From Alphaproteobacteria bacterium (GTDB lineage: Bacteria; Pseudomonadota; Alphaproteobacteria; UBA7985; JAUIBT01), in contig JAUIDR010000036.1 in the NCBI GenBank assembly GCA_030428565.1, positions 1 to 35,719 on the forward strand: 35,719 bases of DNA, given 5' to 3'. The position numbers and the translations under genes are program-made. Positions 11,123-21,773 of this stretch are shown here, one piece after another; the stretch's first letter is position 1; every line of letters starts with the position of its first letter. The notes below the pieces were generated by a model. That model saw only the letters and a list, made by a program, of their open reading frames with translations, made no database searches and was not told the DNA's origin.

Positions 11123-12292
11123 TTAGTAGGGCAAACCGACGTAGTTCTGAGCGAAGACTTTCTGGGCAGCTGCATTGTCGCGCAGGAAGTGGATGTCGGC
11201 CACCTGCATTTTCAGATCGAAGTCGTTCATCTCTGGGAAACGGTGCAAGAGCATGGTGGTCGACCAGCTAAAGCGTTCGGCTTTCCAGATGCGGGCGAGG
11301 GCCTTTTCTGAATAGGCCTCCAGGCCGCTGCTGTCCTTATCCTTATAGTGCTGAAGCAGCGCATAATAGAGATAGTGGATGTCTGAGGCCGCGGTATTCA
11401 GGCCTTTGGCACCCGTCGGCGGCACAATGTGCGCCGCGTCGCCGCACAGGAATAGGCGTCCCCACTGCATGGGTTCACAGACGAAGCTGCGCAAGGGAGC
11501 GATGGATTTTTCAATCGACGGGCCCGTGACGATGGTCTCGGCGAACTGCTCAGGAATGCGGCGCTTTAGCTCTTGCCAGAAAGCCGCATCGCTCCAATCG
11601 TCGGGGCTATCGCTCAGCGAACATTGGATGTAATAGCGTGAGAGATTGGCGTTGCGCATCGAGCAGAGCGCAAAACCGCGATCGGAGCAGCTATAAATCA
11701 ATTCGTGATGGACCGGCGGGGTCTCTGACAAGACGCCGAGCCAACCGAAAGGATAAAGCTTTTCGTACTCGCGGCGCACGGTTGTCGGGATGGTCTGGCG
11801 GCTGACGCCATGGAAGCCATCGCAGCCCGCCACGTAATCACAATCGATGCGTTGCGTGGTGCCGTCCTTTGTGAAAGTAACGTAAGGCGCATCGCTCTTG
11901 GCATCGTGGATTTCGACGTCATCGACATTGAATTGGATGTCGGCGCCGTCGGCCTCTAGAGCGTCGTAGAGATCACGGGTTAGCTCGGTCTGGCCATAGA
12001 CCACAACCGGGGTGCCGGTGTGTTCGACGAAATCAACGTGAAAGATCTCGTTATTGAGCGAAATGCTGGTGCCGGCGTGGGTGAAACCCTCGGTGTCCAT
12101 GCGCTCTGCGATGCCGGCAAGGCGCATCAGTTCGACAAAACCGACCTCCAGGACGCCCGCGCGGATACGGCCCAGAACATAGTCACGGGTCTTGCGTTCT
12201 AGAATCTGAACATCAATGCCTTGATTTCGCAGCAACTTTCCGAGCAATAGCCCCGAGGGGCCGCCGCCAATGATACAAACTTGAGTGCGCAT
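11123..12292 (-). CDS. pobA: 4-hydroxybenzoate 3-monooxygenase PobA
   Basis: A 389-residue flavoprotein hydroxylase closely matching Pseudomonas p-hydroxybenzoate hydroxylase. The FAD motif is IIGGGPSGLLLGKLL at residues 7-21. RDYVLGRIRAGVLE, VVYGQTELTRDLYDAL, and the DG motif region DYVAGCDGFHGVSRQTIP follow. The substrate pocket appears as ELIY...FALCSMR...SRYYIQ, corresponding to Tyr201, Ser212, Arg214 and Tyr222 of the Pseudomonas enzyme. GDAAHIVPPTGAKGLN and a final NYVGLPY (Tyr385 equivalent) are also present. It converts 4-hydroxybenzoate to protocatechuate with NADPH and O2. The start chosen (12292) follows an AGGAAAG site; an in-frame upstream extension is unlike the family. The divergent AraC gene is its probable activator. 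Confidence 0.96.
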   Translation of the reverse strand: MRTQVCIIGGGPSGLLLGKLLRNQGIDVQILERKTRDYVLGRIRAGVLEVGFVELMRLAGIAERMDTEGFTHAGTSISLNNEIFHVDFVEHTGTPVVVYGQTELTRDLYDALEADGADIQFNVDDVEIHDAKSDAPYVTFTKDGTTQRIDCDYVAGCDGFHGVSRQTIPTTVRREYEKLYPFGWLGVLSETPPVHHELIYSCSDRGFALCSMRNANLSRYYIQCSLSDSPDDWSDAAFWQELKRRIPEQFAETIVTGPSIEKSIAPLRSFVCEPMQWGRLFLCGDAAHIVPPTGAKGLNTAASDIHYLYYALLQHYKDKDSSGLEAYSEKALARIWKAERFSWSTTMLLHRFPEMNDFDLKMQVADIHFLRDNAAAQKVFAQNYVGLPY

Positions 12293-12385
12293 ATAACTTT
12301 CCTTTGCTGTGTTAAGATGGTACTTAGCGCGCATGAAAGGCTCACAGAAGGCATTGAGCGCGCATTGACTGGTACTTTTCAATCA
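12293..12385. promoter_or_regulatory. pobA / AraC-regulator control region with swapped direct repeats
   Basis: Two 8-bp copies of TGGTACTT occur at 12318-12325 and 12370-12377, 52 bp apart. Two copies of AGCGCGCAT occur at 12326-12334 and 12357-12365, 31 bp apart. The order is A-B ... B-A. Spacings near whole helical turns suit an AraC-family dimer that binds direct half-sites. The region overlaps the first codons of the regulator if its ATG at 12317 is used, which suggests that the true start may be further downstream. Confidence 0.45.
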
Positions 12386-13288
12386 TTGTCTGATTTTTTC
12401 TACGACAGCAGTGAGTCGATCCCGGCCTATGACCTTTACGGCGAGCGCGCGGAGCTGCCCGACTTCTTGCATTGCGAGCGCATCGTCGCGCGTGCGGCCA
12501 AACATGGTTGGTCGATTGCGGCCCATCGCCATGCCCGTTTGCATCAATTCTTTTGGGTCAAAGATCGCGCGGTAGCCTTGAACCTGGAGGGGCGGCGTCA
12601 TCGCCTGGCCGCTGGGCGGGTGGTCTCATTGCCGATATTTTGCGTCCATGGTTTCGAGTTTGAACCCCAAACGCAAGGATTGGTGGTGACGGTCCACCAG
12701 GAAGAAATCGCGCGGCTGGTTGACCAACACCCGGCGTTGGCGCCTTGCTTGGCGCAGCCCATGATTGTTTCGGCCCACGATGATTTGGCCGCCGCCTTTG
12801 CCGCCGTCGAACGCGAGTTTCGCCACCACGATGGATTGAGGAACTTGGCACTGCGTGGCGCTTTCTTATCGCTTGTTAGTACGCTCGCGCGCAGTTATCA
12901 GCCGGGCCCCAAAGCCGACAAGCGCGCGCAAGATCGTGTTGCTCAGCTTCTTCATGCGGCACGGCAAGCCTATGCCGACGGTCGCGAAGGCATGGGGCCT
13001 GATCTAAGAGTGCAGGACTACGCCAAGCTGCTCGGGATCTCGCCTGCGCACCTGAATCGCCTCTGCCAAGAAGCCAGTGGTCAGAGCCCTGGAGCGCTGA
13101 TCGAGACGGTGCGTCTGCAAGAAGCCAAGCGGCTGCTGGCCTACACGCGAATGAGCGTGGCTGAGGTGGGATATCGCCTAGGGTTCGACGATCCGTCCTA
13201 TTTTGCTCGGGCATTCAAGCGCGGGCAGGGCGTATCACCCAAAGCCTACCGCCAGCAATTACAAGCGCAAGACGCGGCTGCCTCCTAG
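12317..13288 (+). CDS. AraC-family transcriptional regulator, probable activator of pobA (PobR type)
   Basis: A 323-residue protein with an N-terminal cupin-like sensing domain (ASIAAHRHARLHQFFWV-like stretch, about residues 60-90) and two C-terminal helix-turn-helix units. The first is VQDYAKLLGISPAHLNRLC and the second is VAEVGYRLGFDDPSYFARAF followed by KRGQGVSPKAYR, the AraC signature. The phrase SIPAYDLYGE near the N-terminus resembles the start of AraC-type PobR proteins. Its divergent position next to pobA supports a 4-hydroxybenzoate-responsive activator. The start is uncertain. The ATG at 12317 has no clear ribosome site and would leave only 24 bp to the pobA start. In-frame TTG codons at 12365 or 12386 would free the control region. 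Confidence 0.85.
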   Translation: MVLSAHERLTEGIERALTGTFQSLSDFFYDSSESIPAYDLYGERAELPDFLHCERIVARAAKHGWSIAAHRHARLHQFFWVKDRAVALNLEGRRHRLAAGRVVSLPIFCVHGFEFEPQTQGLVVTVHQEEIARLVDQHPALAPCLAQPMIVSAHDDLAAAFAAVEREFRHHDGLRNLALRGAFLSLVSTLARSYQPGPKADKRAQDRVAQLLHAARQAYADGREGMGPDLRVQDYAKLLGISPAHLNRLCQEASGQSPGALIETVRLQEAKRLLAYTRMSVAEVGYRLGFDDPSYFARAFKRGQGVSPKAYRQQLQAQDAAAS

Positions 13289-13549
13289 GCCTCAAGGATA
13301 GCCTGCATGCTAACGGGTAGGCACGGGCAGAACACAGCCTCTCACAGGCAACAGAATTAACATCGCAAACGGTTTCGGATGCTCGGCTGGATAGATGGCC
13401 AGCGCGGCTCTCCTCCGATGCTTGCCCACTGCGCTTGTGCGCTAGGGCGGTGCTCCGCTTCCTCGACGCTCCTTGCTTGTTTTTGATCAAATGCGACTCT
13501 CTAAGACCCAAGCGCGACCAGAAAGTGCTTGACGCTCAGCTGGTGCCAT
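13289..13549. other. Intergenic region upstream of the metF palindrome
   Basis: About 260 bp lie between the AraC-type gene and the palindrome ahead of metF, with no supported gene on either strand. I see no strong hairpin plus T-run to end the regulator transcript and no riboswitch layout that I recognise. It presumably carries the metF promoter near its right end. Confidence 0.35.
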
Positions 13550-13575
13550 GACATATAAAGATATCTTTATATGTC
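13550..13575. promoter_or_regulatory. Perfect 26-bp palindrome, probable operator of metF
   Basis: The 26 bases are an exact inverted repeat with no spacer, centred on GATATC, with core AAAGATATCTTT. The right end is 12 bp from the metF ATG, so a bound protein would cover the ribosome-site region or the transcription start. The core resembles, from memory, operators of ArsR-family methionine-cycle regulators such as the S-adenosylhomocysteine-responsive SahR. No ArsR gene is present in this window. Confidence 0.75.
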
Positions 13576-13587
13576 GAGTTATTTACC

Positions 13588-14478
13588 ATGCCAATCTCAA
13601 TCGAACTCTTTCCGCCACGAAATAGCGAAGGTGCCGCACGCCTGGATACGCTTTTGGCAGGTTTGTCCCGTTATCAGATTTCCAAGTTGAGCGTCACCGA
13701 AGGGGCCCTGGCTTCGGATGCAGCGGGCAGCATGGAGACGATTGAGCGCGCGCAAGCTTTGACCGGACTGCCGATCACGAGTCATTTGGTGTCTTGGGGC
13801 AAGAGCGAACAAGAGATCGTTTGGCAGGTAGAAAAATTGCGAACGCTCAAGGTGCGCTCAATCTTGGCGCTGCGTGGCGATAAGCGCGGTACAGAGCCGG
13901 GTGTCTTTGCGCAGGCTGACCAGCTGACCGCTTACCTTAACAAGGTCGCGCCTGAATTTGAGATCGGCATCGCGGCCTATCCCGAAGGCCACCCAGAAGA
14001 TCGCGACTTTAGGCAGACACTCGACATCTTGGCGAGCAAGGCCGACGCGGGCGCCCGCTTTGCCGTGACCCAATTTTGCTTTGACCTCGACGCTCTGGAG
14101 CGTCTTCGTCAAGGTCTAGCGGATCGCAACATTGCCATTGACCTGCACGTGGGTGTTCTGCCGATCCGTGAGCTAGCGAGCGCCAAGCGTCTGGCTCAGC
14201 AGTGCGGCGCCGATATCCCGGACTGGATCGCAACATGGATTGCGGCTTGGGAAGAAGAGACCGGCCAGACCTGGAATGACCAAGGCGCGGCAGCGCTTGC
14301 GCTCGACTGGTGCCAACAGCTCAAAACGCGCGGGTTTGATCATCTTCATCTCTATGCGCTCAATCGCGCTCAGCCGACGCTAGACCTCTTGCAGGGGCTT
14401 GATCTGGGCAAAAGACGCATCGCAACCGCCGATCGTCGCCCAAGCCGCGCAGATTTCGCCACCGCCACGACCCTTTAA
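13588..14478 (+). CDS. metF: 5,10-methylenetetrahydrofolate reductase MetF
   Basis: A 296-residue TIM-barrel flavoprotein of the MTHFR family, at normal length. The active-site Glu lies in SIELFPPRNSEGAARL at residues 3-18, as in bacterial MetF. LRGDKRG near residue 93 corresponds to the conserved LRGD of the FAD/folate site, YPEGHPE near 133 to the family YPExHPE, and FAVTQFCFD near 155 to the folate-binding Gln segment. It interconverts 5,10-methylene-THF and 5-methyl-THF in the cytoplasm, linking C1 units to methionine synthesis or to corrinoid methyl transfer. No strong Shine-Dalgarno is visible; the palindrome sits immediately upstream. The genes downstream suggest a methyl-THF/corrinoid operon, and the convergent sarcosine oxidase produces its substrate. 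Confidence 0.92.
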   Translation: MPISIELFPPRNSEGAARLDTLLAGLSRYQISKLSVTEGALASDAAGSMETIERAQALTGLPITSHLVSWGKSEQEIVWQVEKLRTLKVRSILALRGDKRGTEPGVFAQADQLTAYLNKVAPEFEIGIAAYPEGHPEDRDFRQTLDILASKADAGARFAVTQFCFDLDALERLRQGLADRNIAIDLHVGVLPIRELASAKRLAQQCGADIPDWIATWIAAWEEETGQTWNDQGAAALALDWCQQLKTRGFDHLHLYALNRAQPTLDLLQGLDLGKRRIATADRRPSRADFATATTL

Positions 14479-14523: not shown

Positions 14524-14862
14524 ATGTCAAAGCCAATCGCTTCCAACGAACAGCCGCAAACCTGGAGCCAGGTCATAGACTTGCTGCCGACCGTTAAGGT
14601 CTCCACCGAAGGCCACACTTACGATTACTGGTCGGTATCCGAGCGCAACTTGAGCCCGCGCGAAGCAACCAAGCTGGGCGTGGCCTTGGGTGAACAGACC
14701 TTGGCGGTAATCCAGCGCAACCCTGAGGCCGCAAGCTGTCTGCGCCGCATCCTGCGTGCGCTGCCCGCTGAAAGCCTGGCTGCTGAAGGCTTTTTGTGCG
14801 CGCTTGAAGATCGCGTCGCCTTCACCACCAGCACGCAAGTTAAAAACGCCTACGTCGCTTAG
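14524..14862 (+). CDS. Small conserved-looking protein of the metF locus
   Basis: A 112-residue soluble acidic-to-neutral protein with a good ribosome site (AAGGA before the ATG). It has no signal peptide or membrane segment. The stretch VSTEGHTYDYWSVSERNLSP (about residues 28-47) and the Ala/Leu-rich helical second half (CLRRILRALPAES...) look like a folded, conserved unit. In alphaproteobacteria a short protein labelled 'virulence factor' (PF13769 as I recall) often sits between metF and the methyl-THF:corrinoid methyltransferase, and this gene has the right size and position. Its biochemical function is unknown to me; the co-localisation suggests a role in the folate/corrinoid methyl branch. 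Confidence 0.75.
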   Translation: MSKPIASNEQPQTWSQVIDLLPTVKVSTEGHTYDYWSVSERNLSPREATKLGVALGEQTLAVIQRNPEAASCLRRILRALPAESLAAEGFLCALEDRVAFTTSTQVKNAYVA

Positions 14863-15071
14863 GTATAGCTGGCCGCAGTTCATAGCCAAGGTATTTGCCC
14901 CTTGCGGGGGCGGCGCCGCTGGCCATAGACCGCTGCACTGATGTCGCTCCTGATCGCGGACTGACTTCAGCGCAACGGTTTATGTCGGTCTTGATACAGC
15001 CGAGCCCCCACCTTGGCGGCCATACCAGTGCTCAACCAAACACCACCGATCTATTCTCGAAGAGGCCCCTC

Positions 15072-15992
15072 ATGGCGCGCACAATCCTAGCTTCGCCCAA
15101 AAAAGAAGTCATTATGGGCTTCGATCAGCCGTTTTGCATCATTGGCGAACGCTTGAACCCAACCAACCGCAAAACCTTCATGGCCGAGCTGCGCGCAGGC
15201 GATCTGTCGCGCGTTGAGCGTGACTGTATCGCGCAAGTTGAAGCTGGCGCTCATATGTTGGACGTGAACGCGGGTGTTCCGCTGGCCGACGAGCCCGCTC
15301 TGTTGGCGCAGTGTATCGAGCTGGTTCAGAACTTGTGCGATCTGCCAATCTGTATCGACTCCTCTATCATTGATGCTTTGGAAGCGGGCCTGTCGGTCTA
15401 CAAGGGTCGCGCCCTGGTGAACTCCGTCACCGGTGAAGACGAGAGCCTGGAGCGCGTCCTGCCTCTGGTCAAAAAGCACGACGCTGCCGTTGTTGCGATC
15501 TCAAACGATGAGACCGGCATCTCTGAAGACCCTGAGGTTCGCTTCGCTGTTGCCAAGAAGATCGTTGAGCGCGCAGCCGATCACGGCATTAAGGCTGAAG
15601 ACGTTGTAGTTGATCCGCTGGTCATGCCCGTGGGCGCTATGGGCACCGCCGGTCGCCAGGCTTTCGAAATCGTCTACAAGCTGCGTAAAGAGCTGGGCGT
15701 TAACACCACCTGTGGTGCCTCTAATATCTCCTTTGGTCTGCCCAACCGCCACGCGCTGAACGCGCACTTCCTGGCGATGGCATCGGCTTGTGGTATGACC
15801 TCGGCCATTATGAACCCGCTGCACGAAGAAGAAATGGCGGGCATCAAAGCTGCTGACGTTCTGAACGGCAACGACCCGGATTGCATGCGCTGGATCATGA
15901 AGTATCGTGAGCCCGTCCAGGGTGGCGGCGAAGGTGGCGAAGGCGGTTCTGGTGGCCGTCGCGGCGGTCGCCGCCGTCGTTCAGCGGCCTAA
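15072..15992 (+). CDS. Methyltetrahydrofolate:corrinoid methyltransferase with GR-rich tail
   Basis: A 306-residue pterin-binding (DHPS-like) TIM-barrel protein. Folate-site motifs are FCIIGERLNPTNRKTF (residues 21-36), AHMLDVNAG (60-68), ICIDSS near 95, VNSVTGED near 120, and AISNDETGIS near 140. TTCGASNISFGLPNRHALN near 215 is the family GASNxSFGLP signature. Such enzymes (MtgA/MtvA/AcsE-like) move a methyl group between a corrinoid protein and THF. The last 23 residues (bases 15921-15989) form a Gly/Glu linker plus GGRRGGRRRRSAA, not part of the barrel. The ATG at 15072 is preferred; the extension back to 14895 is unlike the family. No corrinoid protein gene is in the window. Confidence 0.88.
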   Translation: MARTILASPKKEVIMGFDQPFCIIGERLNPTNRKTFMAELRAGDLSRVERDCIAQVEAGAHMLDVNAGVPLADEPALLAQCIELVQNLCDLPICIDSSIIDALEAGLSVYKGRALVNSVTGEDESLERVLPLVKKHDAAVVAISNDETGISEDPEVRFAVAKKIVERAADHGIKAEDVVVDPLVMPVGAMGTAGRQAFEIVYKLRKELGVNTTCGASNISFGLPNRHALNAHFLAMASACGMTSAIMNPLHEEEMAGIKAADVLNGNDPDCMRWIMKYREPVQGGGEGGEGGSGGRRGGRRRRSAA

Positions 15993-16068: not shown

Positions 16069-16082
16069 GTTTGGGGGAAGAC

Positions 16083-18119
16083 ATGTCAAACGCAGCAAAA
16101 TCTGATGAGGCTCTAGTTCTTTTCATGCCCACCGGCAAGCGGGGGCGCTTTCCAAAGGGCACCAAGGTGTTGGATGCGGCGCGCGAGCTTGGCGTCGATA
16201 TCGACAGCCTTTGCGGTGGTCGCGGCATGTGCGGACGCTGCCAAGTTGAACCGCAATTTGGCGAGTTCGCTAAGCACGGCATTCACTCGATGCCCGAGCA
16301 CGTATCAGCCCCTGGGGCGACCGAGACCCGCTATGCTGAAAAGCGCGGTATGGCTCCGGGCCGTCGCCAGTCGTGCCAGTGTAGCCTACAGGGCGATCTT
16401 TTGATCGACGTACCGCCCGAGAGCCAGGTTCACCAACAGATCATCCGCAAGGCCCCCGATCAACGCGACATGCCGTTGGACCCAGCGCTTAGGCTGTATC
16501 GCGTGCAGGTGCGCGAGCCAGACATGCACGACCCCACCGGTGATTTGCAGCGCGTTAAAGAGGCGCTGCGCGAACAGCACGGCCTGGGCAAGCTGCGCGC
16601 GGATTTGCATGTGCTCCAGAGCCTGCAACCGGTGCTGCGCAAGGGGCAGTGGCAAGTCACGGTGGCGGTCTATGACGGCCAATTCATCACCGGCGTTTGG
16701 CCAGGCGAAAAGGCCGAGGTTTACGGGCTCGCGGTCGATGTGGGCTCAACGACCATCGCGGCCCATCTGTGCAATTTGGCCACGGGCAAGGTCGTGGCCT
16801 CTACGGGTCTCATGAACCCGCAAATTCGCTATGGCGAAGACCTCATGTCTCGCGTCTCCTATTCCATGATGAATAAGGGCGGCGCCGATACCATGCGCGA
16901 TGCTATTTGGGACGCGCTCAACGGTCTGTTGCAAGCGGCGTGTAACGAAGCCAACGTGCCCGCTGAACAGGTGATGGACATCGTGTTGGTCGGCAACCCC
17001 GTCATGCACCACCTGTTCTTGGGTATTGATCCGGTCGAGCTTGGCGGCGCGCCTTTTGCGCTTGCGAGCGACGAGGGCTTGTTGCTGCGCGCTTCTGAGA
17101 TCAAGATTTTGGCCCACCCTGGGGCGCGGCTCTATGTGTTGCCCTGTATCGCGGGGCATGTGGGCGCAGACTCGGCGGCGGTTGCCTTGGCCGAACGTCC
17201 TGACCTGCAAGATGAGCTGACCTTCGTTGTTGACGTTGGTACGAACGCCGAAATGCTGTTGGGTACAAAGGAGAAGGTTCTGGCGGCTTCCAGCCCCACG
17301 GGCCCTGCCTTCGAAGGTGCGCAGATTTCGTCAGGCCAGCGCGCCGCTGCGGGGGCAATCGAGCGTATCCGCATCGACAAAGACACGCTGGAGCCGCGCT
17401 ATCGCGTCATCGGCGTAGAGCCTTGGTCGGACGAGTCGGGCTTTGACGAGGCCGTTGCCAAGACCGGTATCACCGGAATTTGCGGCTCGGGCGTCATTGA
17501 AGCGGTCGCCGAGATGTATCTGGCGGGCGTGATCAACGAGGATGGCCTCTTGCAAGGCGAGCTGGCCGAGCGCAGCCCACGCGTCCTCGCCGATGGCCGG
17601 ACCTTTTCCTACATGGTTCGCGATGGGGAAAACCCAATCAAAATCACTCAGAACGATGTGCGCGCCATTCAGCTTGCCAAGGCGGCGCTCTATGCGGGCT
17701 ATCGTTTGCTGATGGATCGCTATGGCGCTGAAGAGGTCGAACGCGTGGTGTTGGCAGGGGCCTTCGGTTCGCACATCGATACCAAATACGCCATGGTGTT
17801 GGGCATGATCCCCGACTGTAGCCTGGATAAGGTCGTGTCAGCCGGCAACGCCGCGGGGACGGGCGCGCGCTTGGCGTTGGTCAATCAGGCGGCGCGTGGC
17901 GACGTTCAGGATTTGGTCAATCGCATCGAAAAGGTCGAGACGGCACTGGAGCCCAAGTTCCAAGAACATTTTGTGGGTGCCATGGCCATTCCGCATAAAG
18001 TCGATGCTTATCCCAAGCTGCGCGGTCAGATCGAAATGCCGGCTTTGGTCGGTAACGTCCCTGGCGTGGGTGATGATGGCGAGGGCGGTGGCCGTCGTCG
18101 TCGTCGGCGCTCTCGCTAG
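16083..18119 (+). CDS. 2Fe-2S / ASKHA-domain reductive activator of corrinoid proteins (RACo/RamA-like, DUF4445)
   Basis: A 678-residue protein. The N-terminal ferredoxin-like domain carries CGGRGMCGRC (Cys44, Cys50, Cys53) and a fourth ligand in SCQC (residues 98-100). A middle region follows, then an ASKHA ATPase fold with phosphate motifs LAVDVGSTTIAAHL (about 217-230) and VVDVGTNAEMLLG, the acid-base region PAFEGAQISSGQRAAAGA, ITGICGSGVIEAVAE, and GNAAGTGARLAL. RACo proteins use ATP to reduce inactive Co(II) corrinoid proteins back to Co(I). The chosen ATG follows GGGGGAAG; an upstream in-frame TTG at 16071 is within that site. The last 16 residues (18069-18116) are GDDGEGGG plus RRRRRRSR, echoing the tail on the preceding methyltransferase. 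Both activities imply a partner corrinoid protein encoded elsewhere. Confidence 0.9.
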   Translation: MSNAAKSDEALVLFMPTGKRGRFPKGTKVLDAARELGVDIDSLCGGRGMCGRCQVEPQFGEFAKHGIHSMPEHVSAPGATETRYAEKRGMAPGRRQSCQCSLQGDLLIDVPPESQVHQQIIRKAPDQRDMPLDPALRLYRVQVREPDMHDPTGDLQRVKEALREQHGLGKLRADLHVLQSLQPVLRKGQWQVTVAVYDGQFITGVWPGEKAEVYGLAVDVGSTTIAAHLCNLATGKVVASTGLMNPQIRYGEDLMSRVSYSMMNKGGADTMRDAIWDALNGLLQAACNEANVPAEQVMDIVLVGNPVMHHLFLGIDPVELGGAPFALASDEGLLLRASEIKILAHPGARLYVLPCIAGHVGADSAAVALAERPDLQDELTFVVDVGTNAEMLLGTKEKVLAASSPTGPAFEGAQISSGQRAAAGAIERIRIDKDTLEPRYRVIGVEPWSDESGFDEAVAKTGITGICGSGVIEAVAEMYLAGVINEDGLLQGELAERSPRVLADGRTFSYMVRDGENPIKITQNDVRAIQLAKAALYAGYRLLMDRYGAEEVERVVLAGAFGSHIDTKYAMVLGMIPDCSLDKVVSAGNAAGTGARLALVNQAARGDVQDLVNRIEKVETALEPKFQEHFVGAMAIPHKVDAYPKLRGQIEMPALVGNVPGVGDDGEGGGRRRRRRSR

Positions 18120-18235: not shown

Positions 18236-18802
18236 TCAATGATACTCAGCGGCGCCGTGGTCCAAATAGTCGACCAGCGCTTGTGCGAATGACGTGGTGA
18301 CGTAAAGGTCCGTCGTGTCATCATCAACAGCCATCAGCGTAACGGCGAGCTGTTCGACCAGTGTCATGGCCACATCGCCCGGCTGAAAGTGCAAAAAGTC
18401 CAACGAACATGACTTGTTCAGAATATCAAAGCGGCGTTCGCCGGTCAGGCGCAGGCAACAGCGGGCATGGCTCAAGTCCAGCATGACCGCTTCGTCCGGT
18501 GAGACCAGCGGGGCCAGGCGCTCAGCCAGTTCTTCTTGCGTGAGTGTCTTTGATGTCAGCCACCATTGATCCGGACCGGACCAGATCAAGGCCATATCAT
18601 TCGCTGCTAGCGATTTGCCAACTTGTGGCGTTTGGCCGTCGAACAGCCCTGCCAATTTTTCGCCAAGCGCATCGCTACAGCCCTTGAAGGCAGCGACTTG
18701 CCACAAGCTTGCAATCGGCATTTCATCCAAAGCAAATCCGGGGCACGAGGGCAGCGGCGCGGTCAACAAGCCCGCATCGGTAAGACGGATTGGCTTATCC
18801 AT
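18236..18802 (-). CDS. soxG: Sarcosine oxidase subunit gamma
   Basis: A 188-residue protein of the SoxG family, which adopts a GcvT-like fold. Family-like stretches are LWQVAAFKG near residue 33, GPDQWWLTS near 76, VMLDLSHARCCLRLTGERRF (about 106-125), LDFLHFQPGDVAMT near 134, and the C-terminal DLYVTTSFAQALVDYL. It is the last gene of soxBDAG, its ATG overlapping the soxA stop by 8 bp. In the heterotetramer the gamma subunit helps hold the complex and contacts the THF-binding part of alpha. A close relative is the N-methylglutamate dehydrogenase set, but the gene order matches sarcosine oxidase. Confidence 0.9.
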   Translation of the reverse strand: MDKPIRLTDAGLLTAPLPSCPGFALDEMPIASLWQVAAFKGCSDALGEKLAGLFDGQTPQVGKSLAANDMALIWSGPDQWWLTSKTLTQEELAERLAPLVSPDEAVMLDLSHARCCLRLTGERRFDILNKSCSLDFLHFQPGDVAMTLVEQLAVTLMAVDDDTTDLYVTTSFAQALVDYLDHGAAEYH

Positions 18803-21773
18803 ATTGGCGCTCTCCTTGCGGGTCGATCATATGCGGTGAGACAATGTTTACGGGCAGGTGTTCGTCATCGACGGGCGAGGCGGCGAACAGGGTCTGTCCA
18901 ATCCGCTCGCTGCCCTTGTCAATAAAGCCAAGCGCGACGAAACAGTCGTGTTCGACACTAAAGTGAGCCGAGGATATCCAACCCAAGGATTTGGTCATGC
19001 TGCCGAAGCCGCCGACCTGGCCTTCTTCGGTCAGTTGTGAGCCAGCGATCACATTAGAGCGACCATCGGCGGGCATAATGCCAACCAGGGTCGGGCGATC
19101 GGCCTTGTTGAGACCTTCGCGCAGCAGACCCAGACGGCCGATGAAGTCTTTCTTCTTTGCCACCATTTTGCCGAGACCCATATCGGCGGGCGTGGTGCGA
19201 CCGTCCAGCTCGCCACCAGCAACGTGACCCTTTTCGATACGCAAGGCACCCAGCGCCTCGGTGCCGTAGGGCATAAGGCCAAAGTCCTTGCCTGTCTCGC
19301 TCAGCGCTTGCCAGACCTGCGGGCCAAAGCGCGCGGGGGTATGCACCTCATAGGCCAGCTCGCCCGAGAAGGAGATGCGCAGCACGCGAACGGGCAAGCC
19401 ATTCAGCTCTGTATCGACAAATCCCATGAAGGGCAGGCCCTCGTTCGACATGTCAATGTGGGGCAGGGCGGCTTGCAACATATCGCGAGAGCGCGGCCCG
19501 GCGACTGCCATGCCGGCCCACTGATCTGTAATGCTGGCGACCCGGACCTTCAGCTCAGGCCAAACGACATCCAAGTGGTATTCCATGTGCGCCAACACAG
19601 CCGCAGCATTGGCCGTGGTGGTGGTCATGTAATAATGGTTGTCGGCGAGACGCGCCACGGTGCCGTCGTCGAATACAATGCCATCGTCTCGCAGCATGAG
19701 GCCATAGCGCACTTTGCCGATAGCCAGCGTCTTCATACCATTGCAGTAGAGCCGCTGAATGAACTCTTGTGCGTCGGGGCCTTGCACGTCGATCTTGCCA
19801 AGCGTCGAGACATCGCACATGGCGACGGCCTGGCGCACTTGGCGAGCTTCCCGTTTGATCGACGCCCACATGTCTTCGTCGTCGCGCGTGTACCACTCGG
19901 CGCGCATCCACATACCAGCCTCGACGAAGGATGCCCCGGCGTCCTGGTGCAGATCGTGCATAGGCGTGCGGCGGATCGGTGCGAAGGATGCGCCAACGTG
20001 CGGGCCGCCAAAGGCCCCGAGCGTCAGCGGCGTATAGGGCGGGCGGAAGGTTGTCGTGCCGACTTCTGCGATCGCGCGACCTTGTGCTTGTGCCAGCAAG
20101 GCGTGACCGTTGATGTTGGCCGTCTTGCCCTGATCGGTGCCCATGCCGAGCGTGGTGTAGCGCTTTAGGTGCTCGACCGAACGGTAGCCCTCTTGATTGG
20201 CCATAACGACATCGCTGGAGCCTGCATCGTTCTGGAAATCAACGAAAGCCTTCCCCTTGACCTTTCGCGGCTTGGGATTGCTCCATAGCGGCATGATTGG
20301 GCTGGTCTCAATGCTGGCGATGTCCAGCGTTGGCGCATGCCCGGCACTGACGCTGTGTCCCAAATCCTGTGCCGCCGTGATGCCTTGTTGCCAGCCGGAT
20401 GCGAGTGCTTCGTGTGTAGCAAACAGGCCCGCCGCCGCGCCGACCGCGACACCTTCTTGCAGGCGCTTGCCCGGCACAAAGGCTTGCAAATCATCGCGCC
20501 ATTCGGCTTTGCCGCCTGTATGGCTGTGGAGATGGATCGAGGGCGACCATCCGCCCGAGCTGAGAACACCATCGCAGTTGATCAACCGGGAAGACTTGCC
20601 ATCCAGCCCGCCGATCTCGGCAGCGCTGACGCCGTTGCTGCCACCTTTGGCGGACAGAACGGTTTGCCCCAAGGACAGCTCGACGTTGCTGCCTTTCAAG
20701 CTGTCCTGCAGGGCCTCGCTGACTTGGTCGCGCGCCTCCAGCAGATGCACCTGGGCACCGGCGTCGGCCAATAGGCGCGCCGAGCTGTAGCCGTCGTCAT
20801 TGTTGGTCGCCAGGACCAGAGACTTGCCGACTAAGACACCGAACTTGCCCGCAAAGGCCGCGCCTGCATGAGCTAGCATGACGCCCGGGCGGTCATTGTT
20901 GGCAAAAACCAGCGGGCGCTCGATGGCACCGGTCGCGTAGATAACCCGCTTGGCGCGGATGTGCCAGGCGCGCGCGCGCGGCTGGTGTGCTGATAGCGGC
21001 TTGCCGGGATCGCCTTCGACCTGAACGCAGGCCACCATGTTGTCGTCGTAGTGGCCCCAAGCCGTGGTCCGGCTCATGAGGCGAACCTTGGGGTAGTCAG
21101 CCAGCTCTGCCAAGGCTTCGTGCAGCCACTCACGCTGAGCTGCTTCGCGCCAAAGTCCCTGACCGCCCAGCTTGTCATGCTCATCGACCAGGGTCACGCT
21201 GGCGCCAGAACGTGCGGCTGCCAAAGCGGCGGCAACCCCCGACAGGCCCGAGCCAACGACAAGCACATCGCAATGGGTAAAGTGGTGCTGGTAGTCGTCT
21301 TCATTGGCGAGCTCGTTGGGGCGCCCAAGGCCTGCCGCGCGGCGAATGAAATATTCGGGCAGCAGCCAGAAATTGGCCGATCCCAGAAAGATTTTGTAAT
21401 AGAAACCGGCAGGTAAGAAGGCGCTCAACAAGCTGTTGACCGCCATGATGTCGGTCTTCAGCGACGGCCACGCGTTCTGCGACTGTGCGTCCAGCCCCTC
21501 ATAGAGGTCGATCATGGTGGCGCGCAGGTTACTTTCCTGCTCTTGGCCTCTGCCGACGGTCATCAGGGCGTTGGGCTCTTCGCTGCCGCTGCCGTAGACA
21601 CCGCGCGGGCGGTGATACTTGAACGAACGCCCCATAAGCTGCACGCCGTTGGCCAACAAAGCCGAGGCCAGGGTGTCGCCTTGGAAACCCTGGTAAGCCT
21701 TGCCATCAAAGCGGAAATTGAGCGGCGTGTTGCGGTCGATCAGGCCGCCTTGGTCCAAACGAAAAGAAGTCAT
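18795..21773 (-). CDS. soxA: Sarcosine oxidase subunit alpha
   Basis: A 992-residue protein, the normal size for heterotetrameric sarcosine oxidase alpha. The N-terminal ferredoxin-like domain contains GRSFKYHRPRGVYG (about 48-61). An NAD-binding Rossmann unit begins at CDVLVVGSGLSGVAAALAAA (168-187), with YATGAIERPLVFANNDRPGV near 285-310. The C-terminal half (from about 590) is a GcvT-like aminomethyltransferase domain with DVSTLGKIDVQGPDA and GELAYEVHTP. That domain binds THF and captures the formaldehyde equivalent as 5,10-methylene-THF. The start codon directly follows the soxD stop (TAAATG). The enzyme turns sarcosine into glycine with H2O2 production, on the cytoplasmic side. Confidence 0.95.
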   Translation of the reverse strand: MTSFRLDQGGLIDRNTPLNFRFDGKAYQGFQGDTLASALLANGVQLMGRSFKYHRPRGVYGSGSEEPNALMTVGRGQEQESNLRATMIDLYEGLDAQSQNAWPSLKTDIMAVNSLLSAFLPAGFYYKIFLGSANFWLLPEYFIRRAAGLGRPNELANEDDYQHHFTHCDVLVVGSGLSGVAAALAAARSGASVTLVDEHDKLGGQGLWREAAQREWLHEALAELADYPKVRLMSRTTAWGHYDDNMVACVQVEGDPGKPLSAHQPRARAWHIRAKRVIYATGAIERPLVFANNDRPGVMLAHAGAAFAGKFGVLVGKSLVLATNNDDGYSSARLLADAGAQVHLLEARDQVSEALQDSLKGSNVELSLGQTVLSAKGGSNGVSAAEIGGLDGKSSRLINCDGVLSSGGWSPSIHLHSHTGGKAEWRDDLQAFVPGKRLQEGVAVGAAAGLFATHEALASGWQQGITAAQDLGHSVSAGHAPTLDIASIETSPIMPLWSNPKPRKVKGKAFVDFQNDAGSSDVVMANQEGYRSVEHLKRYTTLGMGTDQGKTANINGHALLAQAQGRAIAEVGTTTFRPPYTPLTLGAFGGPHVGASFAPIRRTPMHDLHQDAGASFVEAGMWMRAEWYTRDDEDMWASIKREARQVRQAVAMCDVSTLGKIDVQGPDAQEFIQRLYCNGMKTLAIGKVRYGLMLRDDGIVFDDGTVARLADNHYYMTTTTANAAAVLAHMEYHLDVVWPELKVRVASITDQWAGMAVAGPRSRDMLQAALPHIDMSNEGLPFMGFVDTELNGLPVRVLRISFSGELAYEVHTPARFGPQVWQALSETGKDFGLMPYGTEALGALRIEKGHVAGGELDGRTTPADMGLGKMVAKKKDFIGRLGLLREGLNKADRPTLVGIMPADGRSNVIAGSQLTEEGQVGGFGSMTKSLGWISSAHFSVEHDCFVALGFIDKGSERIGQTLFAASPVDDEHLPVNIVSPHMIDPQGERQYG

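Follow-up and report, generated by a model that had tools for sequence, protein, structure and literature searches.

Why should a long, perfect palindrome stand directly before metF, and which factor, if any, reads it? We scrutinized this locus in a window of 35,719 nucleotides, the whole stretch of DNA analyzed, which represents contig C22 of a 3.5 Mb alphaproteobacterial genome (114 contigs, 99.2% complete). Positions 13550-13575 read GACATATAAAGATATCTTTATATGTC, which is identical to its own reverse complement and has no spacer between its arms. This 26-bp palindrome is separated from the metF ATG (13588) by 12 bp (13576-13587), bearing out the initial annotation, which had described an exact inverted repeat at this distance. 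With an arm of 13, it is the longest perfect palindrome in the window, where the only other with an arm of at least 7 has 7. Its length had also been claimed to exceed chance, in agreement with 200 dinucleotide-preserving shuffles of the window, whose longest arm was 11 once, 10 eight times, and 6 to 9 otherwise. Length is the remarkable part. The short core AAAGATATCTTT, found in the window as one exact match and one more with 2 mismatches at 12041, is unremarkable alone, since the shuffle expectation was a mean of 0.59 and 12 of 100 shuffles also reached two matches. A palindrome arisen by chance in an AT-rich spot, for which the local base composition and nothing else speaks, has a negligible probability given the shuffled arms, and is refuted by conservation: the surrounding spacer varies among the three genomes of the genus, yet all of them carry the exact core at metF.

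The genes behind the palindrome, all on the forward strand, are predicted to form an operon. The first, metF (13588..14478), encodes a divergent methylenetetrahydrofolate reductase of 296 aa, matching PF02219 with 175 bits (cut-off 24) and TIGR00676 with 188.8 bits, the latter below its cut-off of 293.7. Across 61 genomes, its identity was 65 to 68% within the genus and at most 36% to other MetF matches covering most of the protein. No other strong PF02219 match was found genome-wide; a second one, on contig C100, scored 29 bits and was rejected as an additional MetF, being far below the MetF equivalog cut-offs. Next follows a gene for a 112-aa protein (14524..14862) without a Pfam or NCBIfam match, which is kept behind metF in the genus with 87% and 74% identity in the other two genomes. 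Behind it lie genes encoding an MtgD-like pterin-binding (methyl-tetrahydrofolate:corrinoid) methyltransferase (14895..15992, start codon uncertain) and a RACo/RamA-like corrinoid reactivation protein (16071..18119; PF14574, PF17651, and PF17650). Adjoining these on the opposite strand, at 18236-21773, are genes for the gamma and alpha subunits of sarcosine oxidase, which fit glycine betaine breakdown. Elsewhere in the window, at 11123-13288, the 5' end of a 4-hydroxybenzoate 3-monooxygenase gene runs into the frame of a divergent AraC/HpaA-like regulator; the two frames (11123-12382, minus, and 12281-13288, plus) have probably been assigned start codons that lie too far upstream.

In the initial annotation, the palindrome had been taken for the operator site of an ArsR-type regulator of the methionine cycle whose gene lies beyond the window. 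Searching the whole genome with the 16-bp core ATAAAGATATCTTTAT at no more than one mismatch returned three places only, namely metF, C48:51710, and C58:113377, so that the core is indeed present near other methionine-cycle genes. The site on contig C48 (1 mismatch) lies between ahcY, with metK directly behind it, and a divergent gene encoding P0001, which combines an ArsR helix-turn-helix (HTH_5) with a methyltransferase domain and measures 319 aa from its assumed start. Located 44 bp before ahcY and 39 bp before the assumed P0001 ATG, this site places a copy of the core in the promoter region of the candidate regulator itself, whose gene does lie outside the window as had been supposed. On contig C58, the site is found between an mtgB-like gene (MTTB-family methyltransferase) and a divergent bmt-type gene, 9 bp from the start of the latter as measured by 20-mer. 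The product of this bmt-type gene is of the betaine-homocysteine methyltransferase type (NF005718, 451.8 bits, cut-off 338). Allowing up to three mismatches gave 11 places in the genome compared to six for the reversed control, and the matches beyond the best three, which are those whose neighboring genes were inspected, look like background.

SahR, a regulator belonging to the ArsR family, occurs in Alpha-, Delta-, and some Gammaproteobacteria and responds to S-adenosylhomocysteine (SAH) (Leyn et al. 2014, PMC4239095). Considering the domains of P0001 and the genes next to the three sites, the metF palindrome is very probably the operator of SahR, acting as a repressor of the metF operon. The stretch QSQPRxSRH, within the presumed recognition helix, was invariant in 20 aligned SahR-like regulators (20 of 29 such proteins), as expected if these regulators read one site. 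The palindrome would instead serve a protein other than this SahR if another ArsR-type protein of the genome, or an unrelated methionine regulator, had taken it over. Seven PF01022 matches are encoded in the genome, and related regulators can have such targets in common, as SamR of Xanthomonadales illustrates (PMC4239095); however, among these seven only the C48 match adjoins a site with one mismatch or none, and that reading is improbable.

Conservation of the sites among relatives points the same way. In the two other genomes of the genus, all three sites are kept at the same genes, with no mismatch at metF, one in the gap between the regulator gene and ahcY, and, between the bmt-type and mtgB-like genes, one in G001 and two in G002. 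Each of these genomes carries one further 2-mismatch site, at a locus matching none of nine query proteins. For a wider comparison, metF loci were examined in 30 of the 36 genomes with a MetF match (all except G007, G012, G013, G033, G038, and G044), and a genome was counted as having SahR at E < 1e-40, a line that we drew ourselves, among the matches listed, best first. Among 26 loci from genomes with SahR, 25 had a core with up to three mismatches in the 1.5 kb before metF, compared to none of four without it, SahR being judged among the matches listed (Fisher p 0.00018, a value that overstates independence as the genomes are related). At up to two mismatches, 22 of the 26 loci with SahR among the matches listed had such a site. 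In the one exception with SahR, G046, the best site upstream of metF has 4 mismatches. Shuffling these upstream stretches (20 times for each of the 30) yielded no match in 600 at up to two mismatches and three in 600 at up to three. The best of 16 loci in a contig scan, from 'Bacterium HR39' (36% identity), had a 3-mismatch core. The motif occurs at homologous metF loci, and together with the three sites in the genome this supports the annotated role as operator of an ArsR-type methionine-cycle regulator. That the motif before metF follows the presence of SahR (among the matches listed) also argues against use of the palindrome by a different regulator.

The arrangement of these loci differs among relatives. 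Among the matches listed, sahR directly adjoins metF in 23 of 29 genomes; consequently, the site lies 0.9 to 1.2 kb before metF, ahead of sahR, in 21 of the 26 loci with SahR. In the genus of the window, sahR is elsewhere in the genome and the site is found right before metF. The palindrome measures 26 bp here, and about 20 bp of its length are conserved in relatives. Core counts over whole genomes separated poorly, a match at up to two mismatches being present in 24 of the 29 genomes that have SahR but also in 19 of the 32 that lack it (again among the matches listed), and in AT-rich genomes such matches were as frequent as those of the genome's own reversed control. Five genomes with SahR had no whole-genome match at up to two mismatches (G007, G024, G026, G035, and G038).

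How might a regulator bound here act? The initial annotation had offered two modes of repression, blocking either the start of transcription or translation. By-eye alignment suggests a candidate -35 hexamer, TTGACG, at 13529..13534 on the forward strand, 15 bp before the palindrome in all three genomes of the genus. TATA-like candidates for the -10 element follow 17 to 19 bp on from TTGACG, within the left arm of the palindrome, either CATATA (13552-13557) or TATAAA (13554-13559), again by eye; a rule-based promoter scan reported no promoter at this position. With such a promoter, transcription would start within the palindrome, and a SahR dimer bound there would cover both the -10 element and the start point, thereby excluding RNA polymerase. 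We infer from this geometry that blocking of transcription start is the favored mode, and blocking of translation the disfavored one. Accumulating SAH, the signal indicated by published work on SahR, would cause SahR to release the operator. The predicted operon of metF, the 112-aa gene, the mtgD-like gene, and the RACo gene would then be made along with ahcY-metK and the bmt-type gene, such that homocysteine derived from SAH would be remethylated and SAM restored.

A palindrome so close to a start codon might also function as RNA: folded into a hairpin, the metF leader could mask the ribosome site, terminate transcription, or form part of a riboswitch. The stretch does fold well (-15.9 kcal/mol, z -3.23), although any perfect palindrome does so by construction, and a terminator scan lists it (one found, 0.6 expected). 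However, only three of the 12 pairs counted in the stem are G-C, and the next 10 bases hold five scattered T and no run. No Rfam match at the gathering threshold, SAH and SAM riboswitches included, was found in the window or at loci L028 and L029. Hairpin, terminator, and riboswitch readings are thus all disfavored. Moreover, divergent genes flank two of the three sites, and the distance of 0.9 to 1.2 kb noted above for 21 of the 26 loci with SahR (among the matches listed) leaves a whole gene between the site and metF. Altogether, a role as RNA is very unlikely.

The predicted metF operon may also bear on how this bacterium makes methionine. By PF02310, which matched two frames of 234 and 694 aa, no cobalamin protein of MetH size was found in the genome. 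A match on contig C43 to cobalamin-independent methionine synthase was rejected as a full MetE, as it spans 377 aa and falls under every curated cut-off. Parts of the split type are encoded separately: the pterin-binding protein in the window, a homocysteine-binding protein (the bmt type) on C58, and a cobalamin-binding protein on C35, as well as MTTB-family and RamA-like proteins. At L026:653-2139, on C35, an MtgC-like cobalamin protein is followed by a DUF1638 protein. Given the pterin-binding and RACo parts of the predicted operon, the bmt-type protein, the MtgC-like protein, and the lack of a MetH-sized match, these parts resemble the split methionine synthase of Ruegeria, which doubles as a glycine betaine demethylase. 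With SahR sites at its methyl-tetrahydrofolate and homocysteine parts alike, the split synthase would come under SAH control. No SahR-type site was found upstream of the MtgC-like gene, the best within 500 bp upstream having 7 mismatches. More tentatively, SahR may tune, through both operators, a split methionine synthase and glycine betaine demethylase in shared use, besides methionine recycling, so that the SAH level would help to set whether osmolyte methyl groups go to methionine or to oxidation; we regard this as possible rather than probable.

With these results, an oddity of sequence becomes a proposed regulatory site whose presumed regulator can be named and located elsewhere in the same genome, and the SahR regulon is extended to a genus with a MetF distant from those of other relatives. 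In itself, the palindrome before metF is most likely a very clean case of a switch that is otherwise ordinary and known. What is new, to a modest degree, is the place of the operator at the head of a predicted operon containing components of a split methionine synthase/glycine betaine demethylase. This ties the SahR regulon to genes whose control was undescribed in the literature searched; no paper there joined SahR with this enzyme system, and none was found to contain the core sequence.

Comparison with known systems places the locus accordingly. In the available text of PMC12478193, the split system of Ruegeria pomeroyi and Phaeobacter inhibens comprises the same separate pterin-, homocysteine-, and cobalamin-binding, MTTB-family, and RamA-like proteins as found here, and in Ruegeria the MtgC-like cobalamin protein is likewise next to a DUF1638 protein. 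Unlike those bacteria, in which metF2 follows mtgD and another metF is present, the genome described here has metF upstream, as its only strong one; SahR does not appear in that text. For SahR of Ensifer aridi, a motif is predicted upstream of sahR, ahcY, metH, bhmT, and metK, and sahR expression was highest in a sahR deletion, in line with autorepression (PMC8877191). The motif is shared here at sahR, ahcY, and metK, whereas metF, which carries a site here, is unnamed in the available text of that paper. The closest counterpart is the regulon reconstructed for SahR (PMC4239095, in the parts available), with a 20-bp palindromic site, core targets sahR, ahcY, metH, metH2, metF, and metK, and bhmT as a genome-specific target. 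As in that regulon, palindromic sites here lie at sahR, ahcY, metF, and metK, with the bmt-type gene corresponding to bhmT; in contrast, sahR is apart from metF, a classical metH was not seen, and the predicted metF operon contains split-synthase parts. On the grounds of its regulator, its targets, and the co-occurrence of site and SahR across genomes, the locus is most likely a member of the known SahR regulon.
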